From a virus, in the IMG/VR virus record IMGVR_UViG_3300035698_017497, positions 61,757-125,756 of that record: DNA of 64,000 nt; one strand, 5' to 3'. The position numbers and the translations under genes are program-made. Positions 13,590 through 58,013 of this stretch are shown here, in pieces. The notes below the pieces were generated by a model. It saw only the letters and a program-made list of their open reading frames with translations, had not been told where the DNA came from and searched no databases. The stretch's first letter is position 1; every line of letters begins with the position of its first letter.

Positions 13590-16500
13590 TGAGCTATTAT
13601 GTAAGCAAAACAGGATCAGCCACAACACCTTACGATACCCCAGCTAAGGCTGCTAATAGGATAACTGACGTTAGCGTTTACGGAGTATCTGTCGGTGAGA
13701 CATATTACGATATTAGACTTTGGTCAGAGAACGACGGTGATGTTATACGTGAAGATATCTCCGCTGGCGAGGCTGCAGGTCTATACTCATTTGGCGAAGA
13801 CACTGGCAGCGTTACTGAGACTGTGGTTATATCCGGAGATCCACTAAGTCCATTTGTCCCGAGAGTATTTTTTAATACAGTCAACTCGTATGCTAAAACA
13901 TTTAATTTTTATAGCGGTGAATCGCTTAGAAATGTTACAGTTCAAAATTTTATGATTGTTGCAGATCCGGATGGGATAAATTTATCAAATGGTTTCGTTA
14001 CTTGCAATGGTGGAGCGGAGCTATTCGAGAGCGTTGTTATTAGTGGGACTTTCTGGGATTTTAGACAAGGCGGATTAATAGGCGCACCTGCCATACTAGA
14101 CATATATGCGCATTGCGAGAGATACACTATAGAGAGAAACGTGCTACTTGTAAGCTCGCTTGTTTATATTATAGACATTAGCGTTAGCTCAGTTGCTGGA
14201 GATGGATCTACTGTTAGGAATAATACTATAGTAAGATACGGAATAGCAAGCGATCCAACAGTCAGGTTTAATAATGGAATAGATGTTGACTCGAATACTT
14301 ATTCTGAATTCACTAACAATATAGTTATCAATAAAGATTCAAGTACGTGCACTGCTGTAATATTTGAAAACGACGTTAGTTTTATTTCTGACCACAACTG
14401 CGCGACAATTGCCAGCACTGATCAGTTATTGATAATAGTTGACAATACAGGAAATTCATTGTACCCAGGTCCATCTACTCTTTTGGAAGACCCATTGTTT
14501 GTAGAGGTTCCTGATGCTACCGAGCTATTAGATTATATGGATCCAAAATTAAATCTTCAAGCTGTCTCTCCATGTAGAGATGCTGCAGATGATTATGGAG
14601 ATATTGGCGCTTATATATATACTAACGAAATACAAACTGGAGTGGTAGATCTTGAGAATGTAGAATCGCCATTAGACTTGTCGACAATAGTCAACGTTGT
14701 CATATCCAACGTTACGCATCTTTCTGATATAAGCGATAGGCTTCCAACCTTTTACGAAGTAGGCAATTTTGAGGTTCAGGATTATAATGTGGGGAACGTG
14801 ATACCAACTCAGTCCGGGTCAGCATCGTATGACGATTATAGCACTGGAATAGTTGGAGTGGAGAGGGTAGGAATTGGAGGCCTATCGTTTAATATTATAA
14901 GTGTTGAGGTTCCATATTATCTAGAAACCAGAATCGACTGCGCTCCTCCCAACATTACTTATTGGAAGTTCTGGAATTACATATCAACATTCTGGAATTT
15001 CAAGTCAGACCAGTTAAAAGAATGGTTCGAAGATTTTTGGCGTGGGCTAAGCGAGATGAACCATAAACTGACACTGCACGCTAGTAGGTTTTTAGCATTA
15101 CAGGCCCCTGAAAATGCACTTGAGTGTGTTTATGATTATCAGATGTCTGTAGACTTAGGGCCTCTCAATAGTATGCCTATAGAGCTAAATCCCCTAGTCC
15201 AAATCGGGCGTAATAAATTTATATCACCAACAGGAGTGGTGGTAAATCCACCTACACTTAATCAGGAAACTGGTGAGCAGGAGTATTTACACTACATAAT
15301 TGTTGGACAGTATGATTACTATGCAGCTTTCGATACTTTTGATGTAACTAAAAAAATGTACATAGTTGTAAATGATAAATCTACCGGGGGCCGAGAATAC
15401 TTCGAGCTTAATGGGTTAGTGTCAAGTGAAGAAGGCACGTTCCCTAATCAGTCAGGTGTGAAAGATGCATACGCTTTTGAGATAGCTTCAGATTTATCTA
15501 GTTATATAGATAAAGATTTTGCATTTTACCTTACTACTGGAAGAGCTTACTATGTTGGAAACGAAATAGTCTCAATAGATTATTTAAGAAAAAACCCGGC
15601 TACTGTAGGGGTGCTGTATTCAAATGACATAGACTATTATATGCGAGATGGAATTGTGGAATTTTATAATGACATAGACTATTTCGACACGGTGTACTGT
15701 GATTACGTTGAGTACACTGACACGTACATATATGAGACTTACGGAAACCTTGTGGGGATAATTGACCATCACACTTACAATTATGATAATTACCATGGTA
15801 AGGTTGCGATCAACGCTGCACTTAAGGGGTATCAGGAAGCCGGCAAGGAGAGTGGTGCTAATTTGGCACTGAACTCGTTGTATGCAGCTCCTATTGCTGC
15901 TGAAGATGGTGAGGTAGTTGGACTGTTTGAGTCTTACGGATATAGAGTTAGCGATGTATCAATCATATCTGGCGATTATTACCAGATCACTGTAGACGTT
16001 GAGGATGATCTTTCGTACATGTTCCAGAAAGGTACTCATATTTATTGTGATGATACTAACAAAATATACACAGTAGACTCAGTAATAGATCGTGATGCTG
16101 GAACTATCAAGGTCCTGATGGAAGACTCTGATTGCCTTATTGAAAATGAACATACAGTATATCCAAGACTTAGAAATAGATTTGATATTATAGAGTACGA
16201 AGCTGAGTCTAGCGAAAAAGGCGGAGTAATCGTAATGGATGTCAGAGAAGAGCTCTTGGCTATGGCTAACCAGATAGATGTCATAAATACCATAACTGAG
16301 GGTAAAGCTTATCCTGAAATAATAGTTTATGATGCCGTGTATAATGGAACTTACCATATGACTAGCGTTGAATACGGTGTTGAGCCTAGTAGCGCCCGTG
16401 TAAATCTTTACAAAACGTACAATGATGATATAGCTGCATACAACGACAATATAGCTGTCGACGTTGTTGAGGATAAGAATGGCAAGGCTCATGTGCCATG

Positions 16501-41378: not shown

Positions 41379-42122
41379 TTAAGGAAATAGCGCTGGGCTT
41401 CTTGTGTTTGTATAGTCGAATCCAATTACTCCGTATGGACTCAACTGAATTTGTAGCTCGTTCCAGATTACTGGCTCCTGACCATCTCTATTGGAACGAA
41501 AATGATGCATCATCTGAGAGACGCATGTCGTTGCAAGATATATAGCTGTTACCGCTACGCTTGCTGGTGTACCGCAGCCCCCTGCAATACTCTCTTCGTC
41601 TGAATACCACTTACTAAGCCAAACCTTTGAAAGATCATAGCTCTGTGGATTCACCGCAAAAACCATTCCCTCAGTAGAGCCCATGCGTGCTTCTACCATA
41701 AGCTTTGTAAAGGAATTAAACTTGAGCATATGCTCAAAGATCATTTTTCTAGTTTCCATCGAATCGACAGCTAGAAAAGTGTAATCTGCTCTGATGTGAG
41801 TAGCGTCGCTATCTTCCGTGACTCTCTCATTGTGTGTATGGATATCAAACCCCATCTTGTCTTTGATAAGACTTGCTAGAGCATCTACCTTAGGCATTCC
41901 GACATGCTTCATCATGTAGGCTTGGTTTGGAAGGTTGTGTTCTTCAACGATATCCATATCGTAAACATGTAACTCTCCACAGTTAGGTTTACAGAATCCC
42001 ATTTGTGCTAACTGTAAGGCCACGTGCGATCCGACTGCTCCGACGCCAATTATTGCGACCTTAACTCCTTTAAACTCGTCAGGGTTAACGAAGCTAAGCT
42101 GTCTGGTGAAATCAATTGCCAT
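41379..42122 (-). CDS. ThiF/E1-like ubiquitin-activating adenylyltransferase
   Basis: This 247-aa protein has the full E1/ThiF/MoeB core: the nucleotide-binding loop GVGAVGS (26-32), D55-M-D57-IVEEHNLPNQ (the usual D-x-D...N-L-x-R-Q, with Asn in place of Arg), GMPKVDAL with Lys78, and AVDSMETRK (118-126). Cys183 in GGCGTPA is placed like the catalytic Cys of ThiF. The zinc-binding Cys pairs of ThiF are absent. Such enzymes adenylate the C-terminus of a ubiquitin-like protein and pass it on as a thioester. A GGAGG at the end of the JAB gene serves as its ribosome-binding site, so the two are coupled. Confidence 0.9.
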   Translation of the reverse strand: MAIDFTRQLSFVNPDEFKGVKVAIIGVGAVGSHVALQLAQMGFCKPNCGELHVYDMDIVEEHNLPNQAYMMKHVGMPKVDALASLIKDKMGFDIHTHNERVTEDSDATHIRADYTFLAVDSMETRKMIFEHMLKFNSFTKLMVEARMGSTEGMVFAVNPQSYDLSKVWLSKWYSDEESIAGGCGTPASVAVTAIYLATTCVSQMMHHFRSNRDGQEPVIWNELQIQLSPYGVIGFDYTNTRSPALFP

Positions 42123-42124
42123 TA

Positions 42125-43087
42125 TTAAAATCCTCCTTGAGGGTTGTCAAAAGAACCATCTAGAAATGTATTGTCGTCCTGAGCATAAACCATTTCATCA
42201 AAATGAGAATTTTTATTTTCTCTTTTTGACATATTTCTATGATTCATTTTTACGCCACGGTTATCGATTACGGAATGATGTCCGTTTTTTGAGTGGTGAC
42301 CGTAATTGCGTTGGAAGTTATCGGGTGTCGGCCTATCATCTTGAATCAGCTGACTTTGGGAGTTACTGTAAACTTCCTGAACTGGAGGAATTGCTGCAAG
42401 TATTCTTTTTTTAGAAAGATACTTTACAACGTTTGTTATCTTTGGATTTAGAAAATATCCATCCCTAGCAACATCACAGACTTGATTAATTGTTTTGATC
42501 TTATCCATAGTAGACAAATCAGTATTATTAGCAAGTTCTACTAAGGCTCCATTTAGCAACTTTCCGTTACTTAACTCTTCCTCCTGGGTAAGTCTTACCA
42601 AATATGGCATCTCGTATCTAATGCTATTTTTAACATCATACAAATGGATAGTATGCTCCATTCTTTTGTTAAAAACAGCTGAGATATAGTACTCACCATT
42701 AGCGGATTCTCTCAGGAAACGATTGGTAGTGGCATTATCTGTACCAGAGAAATATGCGCTCATGTTAACATGTGAATGAGCCCATCCCCTGATATTTTCA
42801 GTCTCGTCAGCTCTACCTCTATTAAAAAGGTAAAGGAACAGTTCAGTGTCAGCATAATCATCCAACTCGCAATATGCAGCTTGCATAATTTTCTGCTTTG
42901 GATAAAATATATTATACACTTCGTATTCGTTAACAGCCCCGGGGACGCGTTGGACAAACAGCATGAATATAACTTCCATGTCGTGTTGTGATATCATCTC
43001 CCTTATCTTCTGGTCCGTGCTTCCCGTAAAATAAAGCGACGGGAAGGTTGACTCATCATAGCATTTAGCTGTGACTTTTGTAGACAT
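42125..43087 (-). CDS. JAB/MPN (JAMM) metalloprotease, deubiquitinase-like
   Basis: Residues 38-170 form a JAB/MPN domain. The zinc site is H-S-H-(x7)-S-x2-D: His104, His106, Ser114 and Asp117 from the chosen start, with a likely catalytic Glu38 in DMEVIFMLF. JAMM enzymes remove ubiquitin-like proteins from targets or trim their precursors. The C-terminal 120 residues are polar, His/Asn-rich and probably disordered. The start is the ATG at 43087, with GGTGAG upstream; an in-frame GTG at 43099 would overlap the previous gene. It lies directly between the E2-like and E1 genes. Confidence 0.85.
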   Translation of the reverse strand: MSTKVTAKCYDESTFPSLYFTGSTDQKIREMISQHDMEVIFMLFVQRVPGAVNEYEVYNIFYPKQKIMQAAYCELDDYADTELFLYLFNRGRADETENIRGWAHSHVNMSAYFSGTDNATTNRFLRESANGEYYISAVFNKRMEHTIHLYDVKNSIRYEMPYLVRLTQEEELSNGKLLNGALVELANNTDLSTMDKIKTINQVCDVARDGYFLNPKITNVVKYLSKKRILAAIPPVQEVYSNSQSQLIQDDRPTPDNFQRNYGHHSKNGHHSVIDNRGVKMNHRNMSKRENKNSHFDEMVYAQDDNTFLDGSFDNPQGGF

Positions 43088-43088
43088 G

Positions 43089-44498
43089 TTACTCACCACT
43101 TTCTACAAGAGGGAATCTTGTCGTTATTTTGCCAAACGTGTCACTGAGATTTGGATGCTGTATCATATGTATTATTATAGATAGCACACCGTCCATATTC
43201 TCATCACGAATAGCATTCATAAGATCGTTTGCATATCCACCGAAACATGTAGAAGTCTTTACTCCACCGTCACGGCCGACAGTGTTTCTGGTATGCGGAG
43301 AATCTATCGGATTTTCTGCACCTGACTCAATTATCCAATCACTTATATTATGGATGGATATGTGAGAAGTGCTAACAGCTGGATTGGCACTGTTCAGCAT
43401 TTGGATGGGAAGTTTTATGATAAGCTTACCAATATTATACACGTTGCCATTAACGCCATCAGCATGTATGTCGTTTGTAACGATACACACGTAGTCGCCT
43501 TTTACCAACACCTTCTCAATCAAAGGATTGCGGTTACAGTATAACATAAGTGAAAACACGTTCCCCTTAGCAGTGTTCGATCTGTCAATCTGACCCGTAA
43601 GAGCTTGAATTTTATTTTGAGCTCTCAGAATATCATTACTAAGTTTGCTGATAGCAGCTTGGTACTCGTTTACGGCCTGAACCAAGTCATCCTCATTTGA
43701 CGGAGTTGCCAGAATTCCATGCTTGACTCTGACAAAGTCTTTTGCAAAACTTTCGATAGTGGCGCTCACTTCGATTTCGGTAGCCTCAGAATCTGGTCGC
43801 CTCCACATAAGATCGGGATTTGACGTAAGGTTGGATTCGTAATCACGAATTCTGTTATCCTTACGGCCATATTTCATCATACGATCTCTTGGTGGAATCT
43901 CAGGGTCTGGAGCTGGCGCCTGTGCTGGTCCAGGAATAACCTGATTTAACGGCCTGTCATTTCCGGTGAGTACGCCCATGGCAGCTTCATCTCTTTCTTC
44001 ATTTAGCCTATCGCCGTACACGAATCCGTCCTCTACGAGATCATCTTCTGTGGTCGTATCATTCTCGAAGAGCAATCTAGCCTCAGTTTCCTCATCATGC
44101 TGATTATCATTTTGCGCATCCTCTGTATTATCATGCGGCGCTGGGTCTGGTAACGCTACTTCATTTACCCTAACCATAAATGATATTGGTGATCCAGCGG
44201 ATACTATTGGGGATATTGTGGTATTGCCAATAGTTGCAAAAAAGTCCGAAAGATATTCTGATTTAAAGATGGTGTGTGCGATTAGTCTCATGCAGGTAAT
44301 GGCGTCATTTTCGACATTCTCCAACAGTCGTTCTTCGCCGCACCACGGTCTACCATCGTGCTCTATCAAGACTGTACTCCTTCCGCTGTCGGCTGGCGAT
44401 GTAAATGCATTAAAACCATCCATCAAAGCTGGATTCACCAATGTAACTAAATCACTGGCTTCGCGAGGAAGCTTGCTATTTCCTAAAACAAAACTCAT
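43089..44498 (-). CDS. Putative E2-like conjugating protein A (coiled coil plus C-terminal E2-like domain)
   Basis: This 469-aa protein has three parts: an N-terminal domain (1-112), a long acidic, Pro/Gln-rich linker (112-250), and a coiled coil (about 268-306) leading into a C-terminal domain (315-465). The last resembles a ubiquitin-conjugating (E2) fold. It has a strand pair ending NIGKLIIKLPIQM, then SPHTRN (400-405) in place of the E2 HPN motif, a candidate catalytic Cys418 in STCFGGY, and a closing helix GVLSIIIHMIQHPNLSD. The matching order in the next gene and the E1/JAB/beta-grasp neighbours support this. It is pattern inference, not a proven homology. Confidence 0.55.
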   Translation of the reverse strand: MSFVLGNSKLPREASDLVTLVNPALMDGFNAFTSPADSGRSTVLIEHDGRPWCGEERLLENVENDAITCMRLIAHTIFKSEYLSDFFATIGNTTISPIVSAGSPISFMVRVNEVALPDPAPHDNTEDAQNDNQHDEETEARLLFENDTTTEDDLVEDGFVYGDRLNEERDEAAMGVLTGNDRPLNQVIPGPAQAPAPDPEIPPRDRMMKYGRKDNRIRDYESNLTSNPDLMWRRPDSEATEIEVSATIESFAKDFVRVKHGILATPSNEDDLVQAVNEYQAAISKLSNDILRAQNKIQALTGQIDRSNTAKGNVFSLMLYCNRNPLIEKVLVKGDYVCIVTNDIHADGVNGNVYNIGKLIIKLPIQMLNSANPAVSTSHISIHNISDWIIESGAENPIDSPHTRNTVGRDGGVKTSTCFGGYANDLMNAIRDENMDGVLSIIIHMIQHPNLSDTFGKITTRFPLVESGE

Positions 44499-44532
44499 AA
44501 GAGTCTGCCTTTCTTTAAAATATTAAAACAAA

Positions 44533-46242
44533 TTATCTATGAAATGCAGCACGGAGACGATTAACTTCATTGTGAGTGTCTTCCAGTCCTGCGATATTAA
44601 ACGCACATCCGAGATTATTCTCTATCATAACCTCATCGCGGGTAACTCTAGGCCAACATTTTACCTTGCTTCCAGCCGCGTCATTGAAGTTTACTGAGCA
44701 CAAGTAATTAATGCACATCAATAGCGCACTTGAAATATCATATGCTGCAAGCGCTTCGCTTAGACCAATAGTCAATTCGCCTTCGCAAGGTCTACCCTCC
44801 CCGTTGACATGTGGAGCATGGGATCTTTTCCAGAAAGCGTCCACAACACGTGTAGTATTGTACATTCTTAAAGTATAAGTAGTCTTTCTGGCACTTTCTC
44901 CATACTTTACATTTAACCTTATGCAAAATGCGCCTATGTCAAACCAGGCATCTTCGCCAAGTTCAGTCACATTAGCATACAGATTCTTCGTGTAGGCTGT
45001 AACAGTTAGTAATGACATGCTACCATCAGTATTCATCTGCTTGTCCACATTGACCATATTAACCTTTTCGTGGTTCTGTATAGCCCTGATACTGATATCG
45101 ATATTGTCATTGCAAATCCCCTTAGAACTCAAAAGCATGATATCGCTTTTGACGGTACTGAGAGCTTGCTTTTTAGATATGATACGACTCATCAGTTCCT
45201 CTAGGTTGACAATGATAGTATCTAGCTCAGTCTTTTTACTTCTCAGGAGGGCTTCTGATTGATATTTTGCAACATCCTTAATCTCAGATTCAAATCTATC
45301 AATTGCCTCTTTGTAAATGCTTGTGTCAAACTCGAGCATTTGTTTATAGCTCATAGCTCTATCGAACCTTGGGATTAGCGTGTCAATAACAATGTCAACG
45401 GTGCTTGAATTGTTGTACAGAATAAATAGCGAGTCGTATATAGTCTCTATTGCAAGAGTTGCTCCAGTAATAGTATCTTTATATATTTTCTTAATATTTT
45501 TAACGTACTTGCTATTTATCCCAACTATAGGAGTTGATGTTCCGGCTGAAGAAATACCATTATACCTTGATGAATTTGCTCCGTTGATAGTAATTGAAGC
45601 GTGAAGTTCTTGAGAGTTTTTAGTTGCAGATCTTAAGTTGAACGTGTCTGTACTATCCCCTCCAGAGCTTGCCGAAAGAAGTGCCATTTCAGAAGACTGT
45701 TTCGTAAAAGCCTCAAGAGATTCTACGTTTACGAATCTTGTTAGGAATATCTTGTTAGAGATGTGGGCTAGGAGTTCAGTGGTTGACATAGACATATCTT
45801 GCCTCATCGATTCAACATCCTCAGTCGACATCATACCTCCAACTGCTATGGCTGAAAGAAAACTTGACATTCTTCCTAGAGTTGAATACAAATTTGTATC
45901 AGTAAATCCTTTAATCCACATGATTTTAGATTTAGGATGCCATAATTTTAAATCATTAAATTTATTTAAAACTCTAGCGGCTAAATTTATACGAACTGTC
46001 GGGGTCAAATGAGACTGCACAATAAGATCGACACCATTAGTGGCTAACATAATACCATTAGTCCCGATAAGTCCAGGGATCATTCCTGCAAGCTTGCCGT
46101 CTATATTGATATGCTTTATGCCAGAGCTCGAAACTGACCCGAATTCATTGATAATTTTTATAATCACCTCATTAATATCCTTAACTCCAGAACGATGCAT
46201 CATGTCTAAAATAAAGTATCTTCTAATTTTGTTAAAATTCAT
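44533..46242 (-). CDS. Putative E2-like conjugating protein B (coiled coil plus C-terminal E2-like domain)
   Basis: First gene of the operon, 569 aa. The N-terminal 250 residues are unrecognised. A coiled coil spans about residues 310-370. The C-terminal domain (about 378-535) parallels that of the downstream E2-like protein: FDIGAFCIRLNVKYG strands, APHVNGEGRPCEGEL (476-490) with candidate catalytic Cys486 a short distance after the PHVN motif, and a closing helix YDISSALLMCINYLCSVNFND. PHV-N...G.-C-.G is the arrangement expected of bacterial E2-like families. Two E2-like proteins with similar layout suggest two conjugating specificities or a heteromer; both ideas are inference. Confidence 0.55.
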   Translation of the reverse strand: MNFNKIRRYFILDMMHRSGVKDINEVIIKIINEFGSVSSSGIKHINIDGKLAGMIPGLIGTNGIMLATNGVDLIVQSHLTPTVRINLAARVLNKFNDLKLWHPKSKIMWIKGFTDTNLYSTLGRMSSFLSAIAVGGMMSTEDVESMRQDMSMSTTELLAHISNKIFLTRFVNVESLEAFTKQSSEMALLSASSGGDSTDTFNLRSATKNSQELHASITINGANSSRYNGISSAGTSTPIVGINSKYVKNIKKIYKDTITGATLAIETIYDSLFILYNNSSTVDIVIDTLIPRFDRAMSYKQMLEFDTSIYKEAIDRFESEIKDVAKYQSEALLRSKKTELDTIIVNLEELMSRIISKKQALSTVKSDIMLLSSKGICNDNIDISIRAIQNHEKVNMVNVDKQMNTDGSMSLLTVTAYTKNLYANVTELGEDAWFDIGAFCIRLNVKYGESARKTTYTLRMYNTTRVVDAFWKRSHAPHVNGEGRPCEGELTIGLSEALAAYDISSALLMCINYLCSVNFNDAAGSKVKCWPRVTRDEVMIENNLGCAFNIAGLEDTHNEVNRLRAAFHR

Positions 46243-48703: not shown

Positions 48704-49436
48704 AATTTCCTCCAGTGTATTTGAATTTAATAATTCCATTAGGATGCATAAAATTATCGGAATTAAATGCTCCTACATATTTATACTTATCAATACTTTT
48801 ACTTTTTCCGCACATTCCAATTAACTCAGATGTATTTCTTCCAGTTCTATAGTAGCTGCCTCTATGGTCGTAAAGGCGATACGACACAACGCTTTTATCA
48901 TTGTAGTCTGAGACATACGCATACAGATCGCCTCTTTTGATAATGTCGTATCCTGATAGCGAAAAGCTTATCCTTGGATAATATAGGAAGTTTTTCACCA
49001 TAGACATCGCGCAGTCTACTGGAATAACCACTCTTCCACCTTGAGTAAAATAAGGTGCAGCAATACGCCTCTGAGGCTTTATTACTTTTTTTCCTGCCCA
49101 GTGAAAGTTTACAGTAGAACTATTTGAGATAACTCTCATTATCTCATTGTCGTCCGGGAATATTCTATTAACATATTGAATGATTCTCATCTGATGGTAC
49201 TTACTATATTGACTCGGCAGCACAATATAAACTTTCCCATCTTCAATGAGAGTCTTTGCAATTTCTTCACCATAAAGCAAAGCATTATCAGGGTTATGAA
49301 TTTTGAATACAAGGGACGCTGTACGCCCCTCGCATTCCTGAAGAACTCTAACCTCTTTTAATTCATGACCCTTTATAATACTCATAGAGTACTCTGAATA
49401 CACTCTGAGTTTACGAGAGAAAGGAATCTTATACAT
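48696..49436 (-). CDS. Hypothetical protein, 246 aa
   Basis: A basic protein rich in Tyr and Arg with no recognised family. Strand-rich segments alternate with charged loops (for example GRVVIPVDCAMSMVKNF and RRIAAPYFTQGG). It overlaps the exonuclease-nuclease fusion upstream by 8 bp and the next gene by 8 bp, so it belongs to the same operon. AAAAGG precedes the ATG. A nucleic-acid-binding role would fit its charge and context but is only an inference. Confidence 0.65.
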   Translation of the reverse strand: MYKIPFSRKLRVYSEYSMSIIKGHELKEVRVLQECEGRTASLVFKIHNPDNALLYGEEIAKTLIEDGKVYIVLPSQYSKYHQMRIIQYVNRIFPDDNEIMRVISNSSTVNFHWAGKKVIKPQRRIAAPYFTQGGRVVIPVDCAMSMVKNFLYYPRISFSLSGYDIIKRGDLYAYVSDYNDKSVVSYRLYDHRGSYYRTGRNTSELIGMCGKSKSIDKYKYVGAFNSDNFMHPNGIIKFKYTGGNCG

Positions 49437-51477
49437 TTATATAACCTTTTTTCTCAACCTCTTCAACGGTTGCGGCTACAAATTTATTAGTCTTCTTCAC
49501 TGATGTGAACATTTCAATATCCTTATCCTTAAGTTTTAGCCCAAGCTTCTTAACCATCTTCTCGAAGTTAGCCTTGGTGAGACTCAGGAAAGATAATATC
49601 TTACCTTTATCTATCTCGTATCTCTTAAGGACTTCTATCATTGAAATTATATCATAATTAGAACTCTCTAAGGTGTAGAAGCTAAGCCTTGCGTCTTCAT
49701 CTATAACAACAGGCTCGTCGCTATTTTTGATATAATTCTTACATTCTTTTGAAAGACGATCTGATTCAAGCTTGTTCTGCTCAACCTTCTTCCATGCCTT
49801 TGCGCACGATTCTGCAGAGTTGACCACTATCTGATCCATCTCGCCAAGACTCTCAACCATATTGTTGAATAGTGTGCAATGGCCAAGTTCGGCAACGTGG
49901 CAGCCGGCACAAAACTCATTACGGTTAGGTCTAAAGGCGTCTTCTGTTTTTGCAACCTCAGCCTCTACGGCTTTAACATTTGTATCGATCCACTCTTCGA
50001 CATCTTTTATGAGACGGTTGATGTGTTCTACGCCAGATATCACAAGGTCAACAGACTGGTTGAATCTTATGTAGTCTATGCGGATAACTATTTCGTCAAC
50101 ACCGTTCTCTCCGCCAATTTGCAGTCCAAGATTTTTGATAACCATATACGCATACATCTTGGTTTGAATATCCCTAGACATCTTTTCTGCAGATAGCATA
50201 GTTCTGGAGCTTTTGTAGTCAGTTATTACTAACGAGTTATTGAAGAAATCTATAACATCAGCAATTCCTCTTATGAACACATTCTTATCAAAGAATCCTG
50301 TTGGATTTCCCTCTTTGTCAAGCGCCATCTTGCGCTCAAAAATTGACAGTTCTCCAGTAAGCTGCGTAAAATCGTGAGACCTATAAAACATTCCCATGAT
50401 AATATCAACATCCTTCACAAGGTCTGGATTGTTACACCCCTGACTTGCTTTGGCTATATTGCATATCGATGTATAAGACTCAAGATCAGGCATGGAAGGA
50501 TTTTCGTATTCCACATCCTCTTCTGAAATGTAGCCATCAACCTCAAGGAATAGTTCTGAGAATTTAGAAAATCCAGTAAGCTCTGGGGTAAGCTTTTTAT
50601 TATTGTATATATCTCTAGCAGTTTGAGAAAGCTCGTCGTACGACAGTGGATCCTTGTCAGTATTTCTAGAGTAAGAGACGTACATATTTACCCACTTCTC
50701 GCGGTGGCACCATTTACCGCATGCTTCAGCTATGGAATGACAAGTCTTTCCCACGACGAAGTAATCTTTTGCATCCTCATATGTTTTCTTTAAATAACTG
50801 TAATACCATTTTAATGGACATTGCACAAACGAGTTGAGTCGTGAGTACGAGTATCCCATTTTGGCTACAGCTTTTCTATCGGAAACATCTGGAGACACTC
50901 CATTTACTTTTTTAACTTCAGACATGAATAAATCCTCCTGATTCTTTCCAGCCTCTTCAAGGCTATGCAGTTTAATGAACAGCTCTATATTTTTGTCGAC
51001 ATCATAAGATGCCCTATGGGCAAGTTTATCATCCCATTTAATATTCAATTTTTTGCACATGCCCTTAAGCTTGTGTCTACCCTTAAATGCCTCCCTTGAC
51101 ATTTCGAGAGTGTCATAAACTTCTGATGGTTCAATCATTAAAAATTTAATATCAAAATTCTTAATGTTATGACCAACGACTATTCTGTTGCCGACCATTT
51201 TTGCTAACTGTTCTCTGATTCCGTCCTTTAGGTAGTTAGGGCTATCCTTGACCATATCTGAAGTTATTCCATTAATCTTTGTAGTCTCGAGAGGTATAAT
51301 TCCAGACATGGGATGACACAGAGTTGAGAAAGATTTTCCCCTGATTCCACCCAAATTGAATTCAGTGGCGGTAACCTCTACTATTTCGTCTGTTCCGTCA
51401 GGCCATGGGTTCAGCCCGTTAGTCTCAGTGTCTATGCATACAAACGGGAAGTCTATAAGGCTATCACTCACTATCAT
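49429..51477 (-). CDS. Fusion of DnaQ-like DEDDh exonuclease and Cas4/RecB-like Fe-S PD-(D/E)XK nuclease
   Basis: Residues 8-175 are a DEDDh 3'-5' exonuclease: D16-x-E18 in CIDTETNGL, KINGIT, GHNIKNFD with Asp109, and His154-x4-Asp159 in AHRASYD. Residues 208-540 resemble Cas4/AddB/RecB nucleases. Cys220 in FVQCPLKWYY together with C523, C526 and C534 (CAGCHVAELGHC) form a likely 4Fe-4S site; His247, Asp407 (GIADVID) and D420-Y-K422 are the PD-(D/E)XK site. The last 140 residues are unassigned. Both activities would process DNA ends in replication or recombination. It overlaps both neighbouring genes. Confidence 0.85.
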   Translation of the reverse strand: MIVSDSLIDFPFVCIDTETNGLNPWPDGTDEIVEVTATEFNLGGIRGKSFSTLCHPMSGIIPLETTKINGITSDMVKDSPNYLKDGIREQLAKMVGNRIVVGHNIKNFDIKFLMIEPSEVYDTLEMSREAFKGRHKLKGMCKKLNIKWDDKLAHRASYDVDKNIELFIKLHSLEEAGKNQEDLFMSEVKKVNGVSPDVSDRKAVAKMGYSYSRLNSFVQCPLKWYYSYLKKTYEDAKDYFVVGKTCHSIAEACGKWCHREKWVNMYVSYSRNTDKDPLSYDELSQTARDIYNNKKLTPELTGFSKFSELFLEVDGYISEEDVEYENPSMPDLESYTSICNIAKASQGCNNPDLVKDVDIIMGMFYRSHDFTQLTGELSIFERKMALDKEGNPTGFFDKNVFIRGIADVIDFFNNSLVITDYKSSRTMLSAEKMSRDIQTKMYAYMVIKNLGLQIGGENGVDEIVIRIDYIRFNQSVDLVISGVEHINRLIKDVEEWIDTNVKAVEAEVAKTEDAFRPNRNEFCAGCHVAELGHCTLFNNMVESLGEMDQIVVNSAESCAKAWKKVEQNKLESDRLSKECKNYIKNSDEPVVIDEDARLSFYTLESSNYDIISMIEVLKRYEIDKGKILSFLSLTKANFEKMVKKLGLKLKDKDIEMFTSVKKTNKFVAATVEEVEKKGYINV

Positions 51478-52261: not shown

Positions 52262-53308
52262 CTACTCATCGTCAAGAGCAGACGCTGCTGCTGCCTGGAT
52301 CCCTGAAGATGGCGTTGCTGCCACTTTAGCATCCTCGTCAACGACAGGCGCGTTGTCAGTAACTATTCCGATCGGCTCTTCTATAACCACCTCGGCGTCT
52401 TCATTATCAATATCTTCTGGTGAGGATATCAATTTAGAGCCTGGTAAGTTTGAGCCAATCTTTACAGTTTCAGAAATCGCACTGCTGATAAGCTGAAAAA
52501 CATTATCCTGCTTGATGATCGCAAGTACAGGTTCGCTTATATCATTTTCAACCTCTTTTGAAGGTATCAACTCTGTGACATAAACCTCCCTGCCTCCAGA
52601 TATTATCTTGGTATGTTTTAAGTAGAAGACCATTCCGAGCAGACCTTTAAATTCTGCTGACGGATCTGTCTGTCTACGAATAGCATATGCAAGTTTCTGC
52701 TTCTCAAAAATGTTGTTTAACATACTCTCGATACCTGTTACGGTGTTGAGAGAGTTAGTTGACATTTTGTAAGGTCTAAGCAGGCTGAGGTCAACCTCTG
52801 GCCACAAGACTAGCGATCCATTCACATGGCATTTGCCGTCTATGTAATCTGGGCATTTCTTGAATTCGCATTTGCGATCAACGTATACTCTCTCGCCTTT
52901 TTCCTCAGTCATAAACTGAGCTGTAGTACCTTCACCGTAACCTTTGCAGACAATTTCTTGCTTGGCGTTATACATTCCAAGAAAACTTGTCCACATTTGA
53001 TCGAGTGTTGGAACCATGGATATGCATTTGATGTACGTTGGAGCCTCCTGCTTTGTTACTTCGCGTAACTTTGCCTGGATCTCCTCGTTCTCTTTCCATA
53101 CCTTTCGTTCCACTATACGCTTACTCGCCCCAGAGCCAAGGCGCTTCTTCTCCATAGTGCTCTTAAGGAATCTAAAATGCCCGGCAGCAACCGGGTAGTT
53201 ATCCTTATTTGGGCCTTCTCCAGGAGCAAAACCCGTAGAGATTTTGCCCTTGAATTGAATCTTGGTAGTTTTAGCTACCCCATTCTCTGCTGTTAAACCA
53301 TTGATCAT
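52262..53308 (-). CDS. Recombination directionality factor-like (Gp3-like) zinc protein
   Basis: This 348-aa protein resembles the Gp3-like family, which includes the phiC31 recombination directionality factor and many proteins of unknown role in lytic phages. The matching features are an N-terminal STGFAPGEGPNKDNYPVAAGHF-like strand pair (quoted in part), CKGYGEGTTA with Cys121, a zinc motif C147-x4-C152-x7-C160 in KCPDYIDGKC, VLWPEVDLS and STNSLNTVTGI. The C-terminal 75 residues are acidic and disordered. In lytic phages this family often sits next to replication genes, as here (an SSB-like gene is adjacent). Its true function here is unknown. GAGGTG precedes the ATG. Confidence 0.65.
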   Translation of the reverse strand: MINGLTAENGVAKTTKIQFKGKISTGFAPGEGPNKDNYPVAAGHFRFLKSTMEKKRLGSGASKRIVERKVWKENEEIQAKLREVTKQEAPTYIKCISMVPTLDQMWTSFLGMYNAKQEIVCKGYGEGTTAQFMTEEKGERVYVDRKCEFKKCPDYIDGKCHVNGSLVLWPEVDLSLLRPYKMSTNSLNTVTGIESMLNNIFEKQKLAYAIRRQTDPSAEFKGLLGMVFYLKHTKIISGGREVYVTELIPSKEVENDISEPVLAIIKQDNVFQLISSAISETVKIGSNLPGSKLISSPEDIDNEDAEVVIEEPIGIVTDNAPVVDEDAKVAATPSSGIQAAAASALDDE

Positions 53309-53322
53309 CTATCACCTCATTA

Positions 53323-54048
53323 TTAAAATGGTAGGTCGTCTTCTACAATATCGCTACTTCCTGCACGTTCGCTGGTAACGCCAGCTTCGCTTGTATTTCC
53401 GGTAGGAATACCAATATCTCCGGAATCTCCGGATGGATCAGCTGAGATGTCGCCAACTATCTGCACATCATCATCGCCTGTAGCCTCTCTGAAGCTGCTT
53501 ACATCCATCTTGATAGCTCCACTTGGAGCAAGATCTTCCACGATTTCCACGAGGAAAGTTCTGTTACAGATGTCTGGGGTGTTAATAATCTTAACGTTCT
53601 CGCCATCCATCTCAGCTTCAGTTATAAGATTTTTCAGAACCCAGTCAACATCGTCAGGATGTACATCTTTTGTTCCGACAAGTTTTGCGATAACGCCTTT
53701 TGCATATTTTGCAATATTTTCACGTTTGGTCTCGTCAGCTTCTGCGCCTGCCCATAGAGGGAAGTTGTAGAATGTGTAGTCTCCTGCAGCGATTGGCCCG
53801 ATAGCCTTTATCGCTTTAAAGCTCATTTTAAACATCACTGTCTTAGTGGATGCTTCCTCAAGGCGTGGCCCGGTAACAAGTTCTGACTTCTTGTTATTGT
53901 AGAAGGCTACGCATGCCGGCTGCATAAGAAATGTTCCTGGGGTTTTGATTGCTTTACCGGCTTCGAATCCATCAGCTGACGCTTTGTCATACGCTGATGA
54001 TGATGCCGCTGCCTGGTTCCGGTAACGATCTGCTAAATTTTCACTCAT
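53323..54048 (-). CDS. Single-stranded DNA-binding protein-like, with SSB-type C-terminal tip
   Basis: This 241-aa protein ends EDDLPF, the acidic-hydrophobic tip that bacterial and phage SSB proteins use to recruit partners. A Gly/Ser/Asp-rich disordered linker (about residues 195-235) precedes the tip, as in SSB. The folded part (about 38-190) is beta-rich but not a clear OB-fold by eye. It lies between the Gp3-like gene and the primase-helicase pair, the natural place for an SSB. The tail is strong evidence and the DNA-binding domain is inferred. Its own promoter motif and an AAGGAG site lie upstream. Confidence 0.7.
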   Translation of the reverse strand: MSENLADRYRNQAAASSSAYDKASADGFEAGKAIKTPGTFLMQPACVAFYNNKKSELVTGPRLEEASTKTVMFKMSFKAIKAIGPIAAGDYTFYNFPLWAGAEADETKRENIAKYAKGVIAKLVGTKDVHPDDVDWVLKNLITEAEMDGENVKIINTPDICNRTFLVEIVEDLAPSGAIKMDVSSFREATGDDDVQIVGDISADPSGDSGDIGIPTGNTSEAGVTSERAGSSDIVEDDLPF

Positions 54049-54100: not shown

Positions 54101-54751
54101 TTAAAGCTTAATAACATCGAACTTTTCAAAGAATTCTTTCATGCCTTCCTTGTCTACCTCGGCCTTATTAACCATATTGTCGTAGGGCACCACATTGATA
54201 GGTTGAGGCTTGTCCCATCCTATCTCTATATGAATATCATCCATATACTTTAAAAGAAGAATATCATAATCGAAGTATTCGCCAATTAGGTCTAGGACAT
54301 TTTGCCCTATCTCCTCAATAACATCATCTTCATTATGAATATGCCTAACCCCTTCGAGTAAATTCTGAATTAGAGTAGATAACCCATCTCCAGAACTGTG
54401 CTCAAAATCAGTATGGCATTTAATGTAAATTGCAAGTTCGCGATCAGCTTTGAATTTTCTCTCTAGCAATATCGCGAACCCTTTATTCACACTGTTTGAC
54501 GCCACAATAGCATCTTTTAAATTTACACTAGGATCCGCTTTGTCCTTATCGAGATGCCCTAGCGATACTAGCTTTTTCATGGAAGCTTCTATTTTATTAG
54601 TCTCCCACTGCTTAATCCCGCACGTAAAGAAAGAGTCTTCGTTCTCAGTCATTAAGCGTAGGGCTTTTTGCATTATCCTGGTTGTAGGTATTATCATCAG
54701 GTATTCATTTATCCTGTTGATTGTTTTCAAGAACCTTTGACCTTTGATCAT
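54101..54751 (-). CDS. Hypothetical protein overlapping the primase-helicase gene, 216 aa
   Basis: A helical, charged protein of unknown family. GGAG lies 8 bp before the ATG at 54751, inside the end of the primase-helicase gene, so a 47-bp overlap is accepted; a Met at 54697 lacks a site. The overlap implies translational coupling and a possible partner role for the helicase. Notable segments are an N-terminal basic helix and an acidic C-terminus (EGMKEFFEKFDVIKL). Confidence 0.65.
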   Translation of the reverse strand: MIKGQRFLKTINRINEYLMIIPTTRIMQKALRLMTENEDSFFTCGIKQWETNKIEASMKKLVSLGHLDKDKADPSVNLKDAIVASNSVNKGFAILLERKFKADRELAIYIKCHTDFEHSSGDGLSTLIQNLLEGVRHIHNEDDVIEEIGQNVLDLIGEYFDYDILLLKYMDDIHIEIGWDKPQPINVVPYDNMVNKAEVDKEGMKEFFEKFDVIKL

Positions 54752-57700
54752 AGCTTTTCTCCATATTATCTGATAGCCACTGTTTAAACATTTCAGTTTT
54801 TACATAACCTCGACCATCAGTGGTAAGACATCTTCTTCCCATAAGCACTCCAAGCAGAGAGCTTGCTCCATCCATCTGTCTCATTCCGGTAGTTTTACCA
54901 TTACCATTCATATTAGCGTTAACCATATAACACTTGCCCATAGCTACCCTGTTTAAATAATCTGTAAACAATGGAAGTATTGACCTTTCGGTAAAACGCT
55001 CAGTTGACATTAGCAATGTCGGATCAACATACCTAAGTATATTATCCATGAAATCCATATTCCCCAACTCCTGAGATCTCCAAACGCTTTTAGAGAAGAT
55101 GTCTAGGCGGAAGTTTTTACTACTATAGACTCTACGCATCCACTTGTCAACGTAATCTATATGTTCTTTCTTAAGGAGAACCTTGCTATGATCTCCCTCA
55201 GCAGTACTAAACGTCCTTAGTGCAATTGATATCCCCAATCTCTCTAGTTTGGCTGGCATTTCGAGATTTACCAATTGAGTCCTTGAATGAAAAACCTTTA
55301 GCAGTGCTCTTCCGGTGTCCCATATGTGCTGATGTATGCCTTCCTCATATACGACATCGTTTCCAGTTCTGGAAAATACCCACCTAATTAGCGTTTGAGC
55401 TTGATACGAGTTAAACTCATCTGTCAATGCTTTAAAGCCAAATTTAAAGCTATCAAGATCAACGTCATCAGATTTTACTATGTATGCCAGATCAAATCTA
55501 GACAATACCTGTGGAGCTCCGCACACGCCTAACAGTATATCCATACCAGTAGGTGTATCTGTACTCTTATCAGACATGTCCTTCCTAGGATTTGACAACA
55601 TTATCTTCCTTGTACGTGCTGGAATTTTTCCAGCAACTATTTTTGAAATTTCAGCGATACCATCTGATCGCATTGAGTTCATGTGAAGAAGTAACTGAAC
55701 AGATATTTCTGACAATTCATCAATAACAATAAGGCCCTTATCGTTCTGCGGAATAACTCCCCATTTAATTGTTGGAGATTTCTCAACAGTAGATACCCCT
55801 CCAATAAGTCCAGCCTCTGAGGCTCCTCCGGTACCCTCTACAATATCGCCACACTGATATAGTCTTCTCAAAGCTTTAGCTGCAATAGACTTACCAGACC
55901 TCGACTCGCCGACAATTAATACCTCAACCCACCCCCTGGTTATGCTTGGAAGTAATACGGGGTCGTCGATATTCGTAAGCGAGCAGTATGCTGAGTCGGC
56001 AACAAAGAAGATATCTCCCCTGTCGTTTAGTCCAGCAGCTTCCGAGTACATTCCGTATCTTCTGTCAAGATGCTCAGTAAGGGTCTCGCCTTTAGTCTCA
56101 GGCTTGTAGACCTTTAGGGTGTCGATTACTTCGTCTGTAATCTTAAATTTATCAATAGAAGTTTCTATCTGTCTTGTCTCGTACACATAGAATCCTCCAG
56201 ACTGATTCTTTGGAGATACCACAGATACTCCGACCATTTCGTAAGACTTATTTGGGCGCAAGTTGATGTCGCCTTTGATGTAAGCTCTGATATGACTATT
56301 GGCAGTATCGCCGCCAACATATGTCTCACTTTCCATATTGTCAGATATGTCATTTACAGGCGTCGATAGACGCGCTGTATTTATCCTAGTACTTTCAACT
56401 TCTTCAATATCCATATACCTACAAGTTCTATGCAAAAGAAGCATATCTCTGATAGCAATTTTACGCTTCTCTTCTGGAACCTCTATCATTGCAAGATAGT
56501 CTTTTACATGTACCTGAACAGAGTCTTTATCGCCCTTTTCTCCATACCTTGTAATAAGATTGAATTTTACAAAATCAGAATTGGCAAAATCTGGATGCCT
56601 GGGAAGATTGCAGTCCTTGCACGCTTTTGTTTTAAATTCACTATCCCTCATGCATTTACAACTCACATGCAATAGTTTTGGAGCAAAGAAAAATTCACTT
56701 CCAACATTCTCTACGGCTGCAACTGTGCTAAGCTCAATCGCACCATTAGGGGACATATATTCTTGTCTTCCAACAGAGTGGAGAGAAACTTTAACAGTCT
56801 TCTTCTGAGTTCTTAAGGGATTAAAATTATATGGAGAAGTCTTTCTAACCTTCTCAGCGAACCTTTCTATTGCAGTATCTCCAAAAGAATTTTTCTTCAT
56901 ATAATCCGTGAAATCTTTTTCAGATCTCTTCATCTTACCATTAACAGTCGTTACCGCGTTAGGGTCTAACCCGTAAGGATCGTCGTCGCTTTTGTTAAAA
57001 TCGATGATCTTAATTTCTTTTGCATAATTGTATAATTGCTTGGCCAGCTTTTTGGATCCAGCCACTCCTGCGTCATCAGCATCGAGGCATATTATAATGA
57101 TCTTATTTCCGAAAAGATTCTCAGCAATTTCCTTCTCGAACATTTCATCAATATTGACCCTTGAGGCTGGTCCTAAAGTTACTGCTCCATCAATATTATG
57201 CGCACATGCACATAGCGAATCCGGCTCGCCTTCGAATATGTATAAAACCTTTTCGGTAATATTTATAAACGGAAACGGAACATTAGTTTCCCTTCCAGGA
57301 AAAGGATATGTCCATTTCATACCTGTTTTATCGAAAGGGTTGTACAGCTTAACATTTATCAGACCTGTCTGATCTAACAGCGGTATAACAAATGAATTCC
57401 TCTGCTTGTCAAATCCGAGATGAAATGCCACTACAACCTTCGGGGTTATGTGCCGTTCCTTTAATAAGTATTCCATTGCTACATGGTTATTTAAAAGATT
57501 GTCAGTCCATTCGTCAAGCTTTGTATTCCAATCTTTTATAGGCTTAGATGGATCGTCGTCATAATACACTGTAATTTTTCGACGTCTATTCCACTCCTCC
57601 GCAGCTATGATGCTGTCCTTAGTATTAACCCGCTCTTCAGGAAAGTAAATCTCAACGACGTCTTTCGGGCTTTGGCTAAACTCATGCTCGCAAAAATCAA

Positions 57701-58013
57701 AGAAGTTGGTATTTGGATCATGCTCCTTCATGAAGGTTGTGAAATTTCCACGACACCCACATGTGAAACATATATACATTCCAGTCTCATTATCTATGCT
57801 CATTGAGGGCGTGCTGTCTCTGCCTTGAGTATGACCCATGGGGTTAAGACAATGGTAATTCTTACCCTTGCCTTTCATGACTCCTTTGCCCTCATAAATT
57901 CTATGATAATTTCCGCATAGCATCATATTGTAATGATCCTTTACGACTTGGTAATGCTCCTTCTTAATCCCTTTCGATTTAACCTTTGCGGTTGTCCCGG
58001 CTTTAGTTGTCAT
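54705..58013 (-). CDS. Primase-helicase fusion: CHC2-like zinc finger, TOPRIM and MCM-like AAA+ helicase
   Basis: This 1,102-aa protein joins priming and unwinding. Residues 50-90 have a CHC2-like zinc finger (C55, H61, C82, C85). Residues 255-330 are a TOPRIM domain (FEGEPDSL with E261/E263/D265, LGPASR, and the metal pair D311-A-D313 in CLDADDAG). Residues 452-468 carry C-x-C...C-x2-C, like the MCM N-terminal zinc ribbon. Residues 695-815 are an AAA+ domain of MCM type: Walker A GESRSGKS (702-709), TGGASEAGLIGGV, Walker B GLIVIDEL (760-767), KIPARTRK and sensor SNPR (807-810). The fusion resembles the few known phage/prophage primase-MCM proteins. It is the likely replicative primase-helicase. 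Confidence 0.85.
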   Translation of the reverse strand: MTTKAGTTAKVKSKGIKKEHYQVVKDHYNMMLCGNYHRIYEGKGVMKGKGKNYHCLNPMGHTQGRDSTPSMSIDNETGMYICFTCGCRGNFTTFMKEHDPNTNFFDFCEHEFSQSPKDVVEIYFPEERVNTKDSIIAAEEWNRRRKITVYYDDDPSKPIKDWNTKLDEWTDNLLNNHVAMEYLLKERHITPKVVVAFHLGFDKQRNSFVIPLLDQTGLINVKLYNPFDKTGMKWTYPFPGRETNVPFPFINITEKVLYIFEGEPDSLCACAHNIDGAVTLGPASRVNIDEMFEKEIAENLFGNKIIIICLDADDAGVAGSKKLAKQLYNYAKEIKIIDFNKSDDDPYGLDPNAVTTVNGKMKRSEKDFTDYMKKNSFGDTAIERFAEKVRKTSPYNFNPLRTQKKTVKVSLHSVGRQEYMSPNGAIELSTVAAVENVGSEFFFAPKLLHVSCKCMRDSEFKTKACKDCNLPRHPDFANSDFVKFNLITRYGEKGDKDSVQVHVKDYLAMIEVPEEKRKIAIRDMLLLHRTCRYMDIEEVESTRINTARLSTPVNDISDNMESETYVGGDTANSHIRAYIKGDINLRPNKSYEMVGVSVVSPKNQSGGFYVYETRQIETSIDKFKITDEVIDTLKVYKPETKGETLTEHLDRRYGMYSEAAGLNDRGDIFFVADSAYCSLTNIDDPVLLPSITRGWVEVLIVGESRSGKSIAAKALRRLYQCGDIVEGTGGASEAGLIGGVSTVEKSPTIKWGVIPQNDKGLIVIDELSEISVQLLLHMNSMRSDGIAEISKIVAGKIPARTRKIMLSNPRKDMSDKSTDTPTGMDILLGVCGAPQVLSRFDLAYIVKSDDVDLDSFKFGFKALTDEFNSYQAQTLIRWVFSRTGNDVVYEEGIHQHIWDTGRALLKVFHSRTQLVNLEMPAKLERLGISIALRTFSTAEGDHSKVLLKKEHIDYVDKWMRRVYSSKNFRLDIFSKSVWRSQELGNMDFMDNILRYVDPTLLMSTERFTERSILPLFTDYLNRVAMGKCYMVNANMNGNGKTTGMRQMDGASSLLGVLMGRRCLTTDGRGYVKTEMFKQWLSDNMEKSYDQRSKVLENNQQDK

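Follow-up and report, generated by a model that had tools for sequence, protein, structure and literature searches.

Bacterial replication forks are opened by a DnaB ring that moves 5'-to-3' on the lagging strand, whereas in archaea and eukaryotes this is done by an MCM ring that travels 3'-to-5' along the leading strand, and the primases that serve the two are unrelated. The fusion of a primase to a DnaB-type helicase is already known from gp4 of phage T7 (PMC10359460). Likewise, MCM helicases have been described on phages and plasmids of bacteria, including fusions to a primase of the archaeo-eukaryotic (AEP) superfamily (PMC5862659), and the SCCmec proteins Cch and Cch2 are hexameric, the former being close to MCM and the latter working 3'-to-5' (PMC7581432). 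The gene considered here lies in the right-hand 64 kb (positions 61757-125756; the whole stretch analysed, hereafter the window) of the 125,756-base virus record IMGVR_UViG_3300035698_017497, and its product appears to cross, in a single chain, a bacterial primase of the TOPRIM type with a helicase of the archaeal/eukaryotic type, a combination that seems functional in real phages. No description of such a TOPRIM-MCM fusion was found in the literature searched, and an earlier mention in Kazlauskas et al. 2016 or Samuels et al. 2009 is possible. The protein is probably the replicative primase-helicase of its phage, an MCM-type ring with a DnaG-type primase on each subunit, a proposal that builds on its domain content, its conserved catalytic residues, a predicted complete MCM fold and the fact that no DnaB was detected in the same phages.

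The likeness to each of the known systems is partial. T7 gp4 likewise carries its CHC2-TOPRIM primase in front of a ring helicase, and the EGExD motif of the TOPRIM domain is alike in both proteins. However, the motor of gp4 is of the RecA/DnaB type, in contrast to the MCM-type AAA+ of the window protein, for which a polarity opposite to that of gp4 is expected. The AEP-MCM fusions of Bacillus phages and prophages, represented by gp45 of vB_BboS-125, share with it the phage MCM clade, the N-terminal domain, the AAA+ motor and the N-terminal position of the primase, but in place of CHC2-TOPRIM they bear a primase of the PriS/AEP type (Pfam DNA_primase_S, 3.9e-10 in vB_BboS-125). Fusions of what is probably this kind are reportedly described in two papers that PMC5862659 cites, McGeoch and Bell 2005 and Samuels et al. 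2009. The same order of TOPRIM and MCM, with about 22-25% identity, is found in Krampus gp47 (Microbacterium), BSP7 (Bacillus), Youna2 (Weizmannia) and Wollypog gp50 (Arthrobacter), whose proteins are shorter (961-1005 residues versus 1102) and whose phages carry PolA or DnaE, in contrast to the window's record, in which no polymerase was recognised. Cch and Cch2, likened here by description, are MCM-like helicases of bacterial mobile elements as well, but with the primase as a separate protein.

Domains of the fusion protein and identity of its motor

Three Pfam domains follow one another along the protein, CHC2 finger, TOPRIM and MCM, each scoring above its curated cut-off (for MCM, 5.8e-10 at residues 692-848, with 39.1 bits against a cut-off of 23.3). 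PHROGs agrees with this, giving 'DNA primase' at 2.1e-28 (residues 47-381) and 'DNA helicase' at 5.3e-13 (residues 691-848). This bears out the preliminary description of the locus, which had read an MCM motor in one polypeptide together with a TOPRIM domain and a CHC2-like finger: the four motifs that it had taken as signs of an MCM-type AAA+ core are all in place (GESRSGKS at residues 702-709, GGASEAGL at 729-736, PARTR at 798-802 and SNPR at 807-810), and behind what it called an MCM-like zinc ribbon are Cys452, Cys465, Cys468 and Cys531, which form a candidate zinc site within a domain of predicted MCM N-terminal fold. The features of a DnaG/TOPRIM primase, namely a CHC2 finger and a TOPRIM domain with its acidic triad, are present, and primer synthesis is predicted.

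Conservation was counted in an alignment of 57 proteins (the window protein and 56 relatives), according to which the catalytic residues of both the primase and the helicase are largely conserved. In the motor, K708 (Walker A), E766 (Walker B), N808 (sensor 1), R839 and K922 are each found in 57/57, the column of the Walker B D765 holds D in 52 proteins and E in 5, and that of R925 holds R in 53 and K in 4. On the primase side, E263, D311 and G316 are invariant, D313 is kept in 56/57 and E261 in 52/57; the finger cysteines C55, C82 and C85 occur in 53, 54 and 52 of the proteins, respectively, and H61 in 22, with a gap at that column in the other 35. As for the cysteines of the N-terminal domain, C452, C465 and C468 are present in all 57 and C531 in 54.

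The Pfam MCM model is unspecific when taken alone, with matches in all 10 bacterial control genomes as well, and therefore the identity of the motor was addressed by other tests. When a profile of the 57 proteins was compared with PDB chains, the motor matches among the best 60 of 77 were MCM2-8 and archaeal MCM (Mcm2, 2e-12; archaeal MCM 3f9v, 3.3e-11), and the primase half matched the DnaG chain 2au3 (E 2.2e-27) and also chains of T7 gp4. An AAA+ profile of the same proteins gave 34-60 bits for seven of eight archaeal or haloviral MCM references, the eighth, the annotated archaeal plasmid MCM pFS01, obtaining 0.3 bits and E. coli ComM 9.4. In the case of the full AlphaFold2 (AF2) model, with a mean predicted local distance difference test score (pLDDT) of 84.5 and a predicted template modelling score (pTM) of 0.62, the best 50 matches in Foldseek and the best 50 in VIA are all MCM or replisome entries, the best VIA match being SsoPfMCM (9nuk_A; Z 29.9, 454 residues aligned, root-mean-square deviation 4.2 Å, model residues 404-971). 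The N-terminal domain modelled alone (residues 400-645; mean pLDDT 89.3, pTM 0.83) again has nothing but MCM or replisome entries among the best 50 matches of each program (best Z 11.8), and for this reason the protein is predicted to hold the whole MCM core, that is, the N-terminal domain together with the AAA+, and more than an AAA+ cassette.

The preliminary description had named clustering with a different AAA+ clade as the outcome that would speak against MCM, and in the PDB profile search, the structural comparisons and the AAA+ profile the domain did not group elsewhere. SF3 and RuvB-like motors are both missing from the Pfam matches, the best 60 PDB matches and the best 50 structural matches, an absence that refers to those matches. 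A RecA/DnaB-type motor, as in T7 gp4 or twinkle, was rejected, the motor being MCM by Pfam, PDB profile and structure and DnaB_C having no match in the record; an AEP primase in the window protein was rejected too, since no AEP family is among its Pfam matches, in contrast to vB_BboS-125. A bacterial motor of the ComM/Mg-chelatase type, which belongs with MCM to the helix-2-insert superclade, would agree with the unspecific Pfam model, with the RFD motif that the ComM sequence also has and with a weak Mg_chelatase match (E 0.019), but the AAA+ profile sets seven of the eight MCM references (all but pFS01) well above ComM, the N-terminal domain is of the MCM type by predicted structure, and the motor matches among those 60 PDB chains are MCMs. 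This candidate was consequently rejected and retains hardly any probability.

Replication genes of the same genomes and proposed role at the fork

As in the window's own record, DnaB_C had no match in the 36 records examined that share this MCM (35 TOPRIM-MCM and 1 AEP-MCM, among them seven of named phages), nor in 12 AEP-MCM records, one of which is probably vB_BboS-125 itself (100% match). The same procedure applied to T7 and T4 gave matches in both. Given that neither the own record nor the 36 others yielded a DnaB-type helicase, the fusion is probably a replicative primase-helicase that stands in for the usual DnaB-type helicase in this phage lineage.

Six copies would be expected to assemble into a ring of the MCM type and to unwind the fork at the expense of ATP, each subunit carrying its DnaG-type primase ahead of the MCM N-terminal domain, with the zinc finger reading the template and the TOPRIM domain making the primer. 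The ring would move 3'-to-5' on the leading-strand template with the N-tier in front, in the way that Sso MCM travels N-first (PMC6831031). Because an MCM moves N-tier first and the primase joins the N-terminus, the former would ride ahead of the latter on the front of the ring, the side on which the lagging strand, kept out of the ring, should emerge and could be primed; in the fusion, unwinding and priming would be coupled as in T7 gp4, with the opposite motor polarity. In eukaryotes, Pol alpha-primase docks on the Cdc45-MCM-GINS helicase (CMG) at its leading edge, with the catalytic subunit above the lagging-strand exit, between the zinc-finger domains of Mcm3 and Mcm5 (PMC10501992). A primase attached just before the MCM N-terminal domain would produce a CMG-like geometry by construction, the position of the primase being left unfixed in the model. 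The fusion could in this manner provide a small single-protein system for MCM-primase coupling, otherwise studied in the large CMG/Pol alpha complexes.

With regard to polymerases, PolA was found in 17/35 records, and of the other 18 records 12 have DnaE, which makes 29/35 with one or the other. The remaining six are five members of the window's clade (G001-G005) and the 52-kb contig G022, and PolB is absent from these six; outside the window's sub-clade, PolA or DnaE is present in 29 of the 30 records tested. The records G002 and G005 (loci L010 and L014) are probably near copies of each other, judging by their identical BLAST values, and the polymerase-less records therefore amount to fewer than six independent cases. 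An initiator/loader or a recombination helicase with a side priming activity, leaving the unwinding of the fork to the host DnaB, would suit both the lack of a recognised polymerase in the window's record, which fits a heavy use of the host replisome, and the SNF2-type and nuclease genes in the same cluster. Nevertheless, such a role is unlikely: for the most part the family is accompanied by replication modules, with an own PolA or DnaE in those 29 of 35 other records, DnaB was detected in none of the 36 records, and in DNA viruses with a replicative primase the helicase is typically fused to it or encoded nearby (PMC7581432).

Several observations do weigh against a replicative primase-helicase. 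No PolA, PolB or DnaE was recognised in the own record or in five near relatives, so that in the window's sub-clade the fork is only partly accounted for, and the surveyed records are mostly contigs, possibly incomplete. The arrangement of the primase relative to the MCM in the full AF2 model is unreliable, as its pTM indicates. The lysine of the pre-sensor-1 beta-hairpin is counted as an MCM feature, and the corresponding column (K791) holds K in 36/57 proteins and G in 17/57; hairpin strands are predicted at this position in the AF2 model. Moreover, the first TOPRIM glutamate (E261) is lost in 5/57 proteins, replaced by G in four and by A in one; these five include the near relatives L002 and L010, and priming may therefore be altered in some members of the family. 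Together with the columns of D265 (K in 5/57) and D370 (N in 5/57), these changes could speak for a primase half that is decayed or holds the template only, the protein being then a plain MCM helicase. However, the window protein keeps E261 and has D at both of the other positions, and E263, D311 and G316 are invariant in the family, with D313 missing from a single member, so a decayed primase is very improbable.

Distribution of the family and exchange of primases

A tblastn search with the fusion protein matched 51 of 50,697 phage records (including 2 of one AEP-MCM phage and a short Listeria phage piece covering the N-terminal fifth only), 41 of which cover at least 80% of the protein. The matching phage proteins are mostly annotated as 'DNA primase' or 'DNA primase/helicase', and some phages with a TOPRIM-MCM have laboratory hosts (Microbacterium foliorum, Bacillus subtilis). 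In IMG/VR, a search by one 8-residue pattern led to at least 154 confirmed relatives, of which 80 were kept, and five loci, L002 among them, belong to the window's own clade. The rarity that had been attributed to these fusions holds for isolated phages but not for the lineage as a whole, which is widespread. The collection of bacterial and archaeal species genomes yielded two cases, a TOPRIM-MCM in a Bacteroidales metagenome-assembled genome (MAG) contig and an AEP-MCM in a Fermentibacteria MAG contig, the latter (L097, 4635-8825) interrupted at Walker A by an intein-like insert. Out of seven named-phage proteins searched with Pfam, six carry CHC2 and/or TOPRIM plus MCM, and one (vB_BboS-125) a PriS-type AEP plus MCM; in the proteins of Wollypog and Krampus TOPRIM and MCM were matched and CHC2 was not, and in three of the six (Manatee Spring phage, Krampus and API480) MCM stayed below the curated cut-off, with E 0.0016 or better.

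Two trees of AAA+ domains were compared. Tree 1 comprised 53 domains, 37 of them from TOPRIM-MCM, with ComM as the single outgroup row, and tree 2 comprised 45, 32 of them from TOPRIM-MCM, after dropping the long rows API480, ComM and pTN3, as well as Sso MCM (a short piece), Ajin, L090, L018 and L082; pFS01 (no Walker A by pattern) and L097 (intein) were left out of both. With ComM as one row in the first and absent from the second, the trees are uninformative on MCM versus ComM. All phage MCMs, both TOPRIM- and AEP-bearing, fall on one side of a branch that separates them from archaeal, haloviral and eukaryotic MCM (support 100/99 in tree 1 and 100/100 in tree 2). The mix of a bacterial-type primase with an archaeal/eukaryotic-type helicase, as put forward in the preliminary description, is real, but the helicase is not close to the archaeal or eukaryotic MCMs and belongs to this separate phage clade. 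Within the latter, the AEP-MCM group is nested among the TOPRIM-MCMs (91/88 in tree 1, 94/87 in tree 2); a single TOPRIM-MCM clade is not rejected (approximately unbiased test, p-AU 0.317, tree 2), so the nesting cannot establish TOPRIM as the first primase.

The similarity of the vB_BboS-125 and L097 proteins to the TOPRIM-MCMs begins at roughly the point where the TOPRIM domain ends, and under both tree topologies the same phage MCM module, N-terminal domain included, is found by sequence to carry either type of primase. As sister proteins bear an AEP on the same module and the helicase sits in a separate phage MCM clade that also bears AEPs, the comparison indicates that the primase was swapped on a phage MCM and that there was no recent import from archaea; primase type and helicase type are exchangeable. 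It is conceivable, and we put it forward tentatively, as somewhat less than an even prospect, that one phage MCM lineage exchanged its primase between the unrelated TOPRIM and AEP superfamilies at a single joint before the MCM N-terminal domain, that the leading face of MCM is a general seat for primases, reached independently by phages and eukaryotes, that these rings move N-first with a front-mounted primase, and that the window's sub-clade may use a host or an unrecognised polymerase.

Gene neighbourhood

The fusion gene shares its cluster with nucleases, an SNF2 helicase and a gene for a protein resembling single-strand DNA-binding proteins (SSB) (Table 1), and is followed downstream by the genes of the 216-residue protein, the candidate SSB, the Gp3-like protein and the exonuclease-nuclease fusion. 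In the named phages, its neighbours include a nuclease, a helicase gene, a polymerase (PolA or DnaE) and an ATPase that is RecA-like or of another kind.

Table 1. Parts of the fusion gene and nearby genes, in window positions
Feature	Positions	Strand	Evidence and remarks
TOPRIM primase-MCM helicase, whole gene	54705..58013	minus	Single intact open reading frame, ATG start, 1102 residues
CHC2-type zinc finger, residues 45-105 (C55, H61, C82, C85)	57699..57881	minus	Pfam Zn_ribbon_DnaG, 2.7e-7
TOPRIM catalytic domain, residues 258-344 (E261, E263, D311, D313)	56982..57242	minus	Pfam Toprim_2, 1.6e-5
MCM N-terminal domain, residues 400-645	56079..56816	minus	Separate AF2 model, structural matches
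Candidate zinc site of the MCM N-terminal domain (C452, C465, C468, C531)	56421..56660	minus	Suggested by cysteine conservation
MCM AAA+ motor, residues 646-977	55083..56078	minus	Pfam MCM, 5.8e-10, and structural match
Walker A GESRSGKS, residues 702-709	55887..55910	minus	K708 in 57/57
Arginine finger motif RFD, residues 839-841	55491..55499	minus	R839 in 57/57; lines up with LSRFD in Sso MCM and in yeast Mcm2
C-terminal helical region, residues 978-1102, possible winged helix	54705..55082	minus	Predicted from AF2 secondary structure only
216-residue protein, overlapping the 3' end of the fusion gene	54101..54751	minus	No Pfam or PHROG match
241-residue candidate single-strand DNA-binding protein, tail DDLPF	53323..54048	minus	Tail read from the sequence; SSB role putative
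348-residue protein, Pfam Gp3-like (recombination directionality factor-like)	52262..53308	minus	2.5e-7; relatives in 5/5 clade loci
DEDDh exonuclease fused to PD-(D/E)XK nuclease	49429..51477	minus	RNase_T 6.5e-20, PDDEXK_1 1.1e-18; relatives in 4/5 clade loci

Relatives of the fusion protein occur in 5/5 of the clade loci, and those of the SSB-like protein in 4/5 (L010, L011, L013 and L014). The positional counterpart of the 216-residue protein in L002 has 229 residues and ends in DDELPF, there being no BLAST link shown between the two.

Further along the minus strand, positions 41379-46242 hold a ThiF/E1-like gene (ThiF, 1.1e-21), a Prok-JAB-like gene (0.00031, below the cut-off), a 469-residue gene with no credible match and a 569-residue gene, whose family has a PHVFxDGxxCxG motif, which we take to resemble E2, and has relatives in 5/5 near-relative records. 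Together, these genes form a possible phage ubiquitin-like conjugation cassette. The 569-residue gene (44533-46242) was also considered as an unrecognised polymerase, and this was set aside in view of its PHVFxDGxxCxG-like C-terminal motif and its ThiF/JAB neighbours; no family matched it.

Elsewhere in the same virus record, outside the window, there are a reverse transcriptase-like gene (L098, 14947-16119; PHROG 2825, 2e-47; PHROG 1423 'Reverse transcriptase', 1.6e-13) and, near a terminase gene, a 1005-residue protein with intein/LAGLIDADG matches (L099, 5352-8369). Finally, L002 encodes at 14229-15011 a protein made of near-identical SLDLGSLTSAAGLKLPT repeats.

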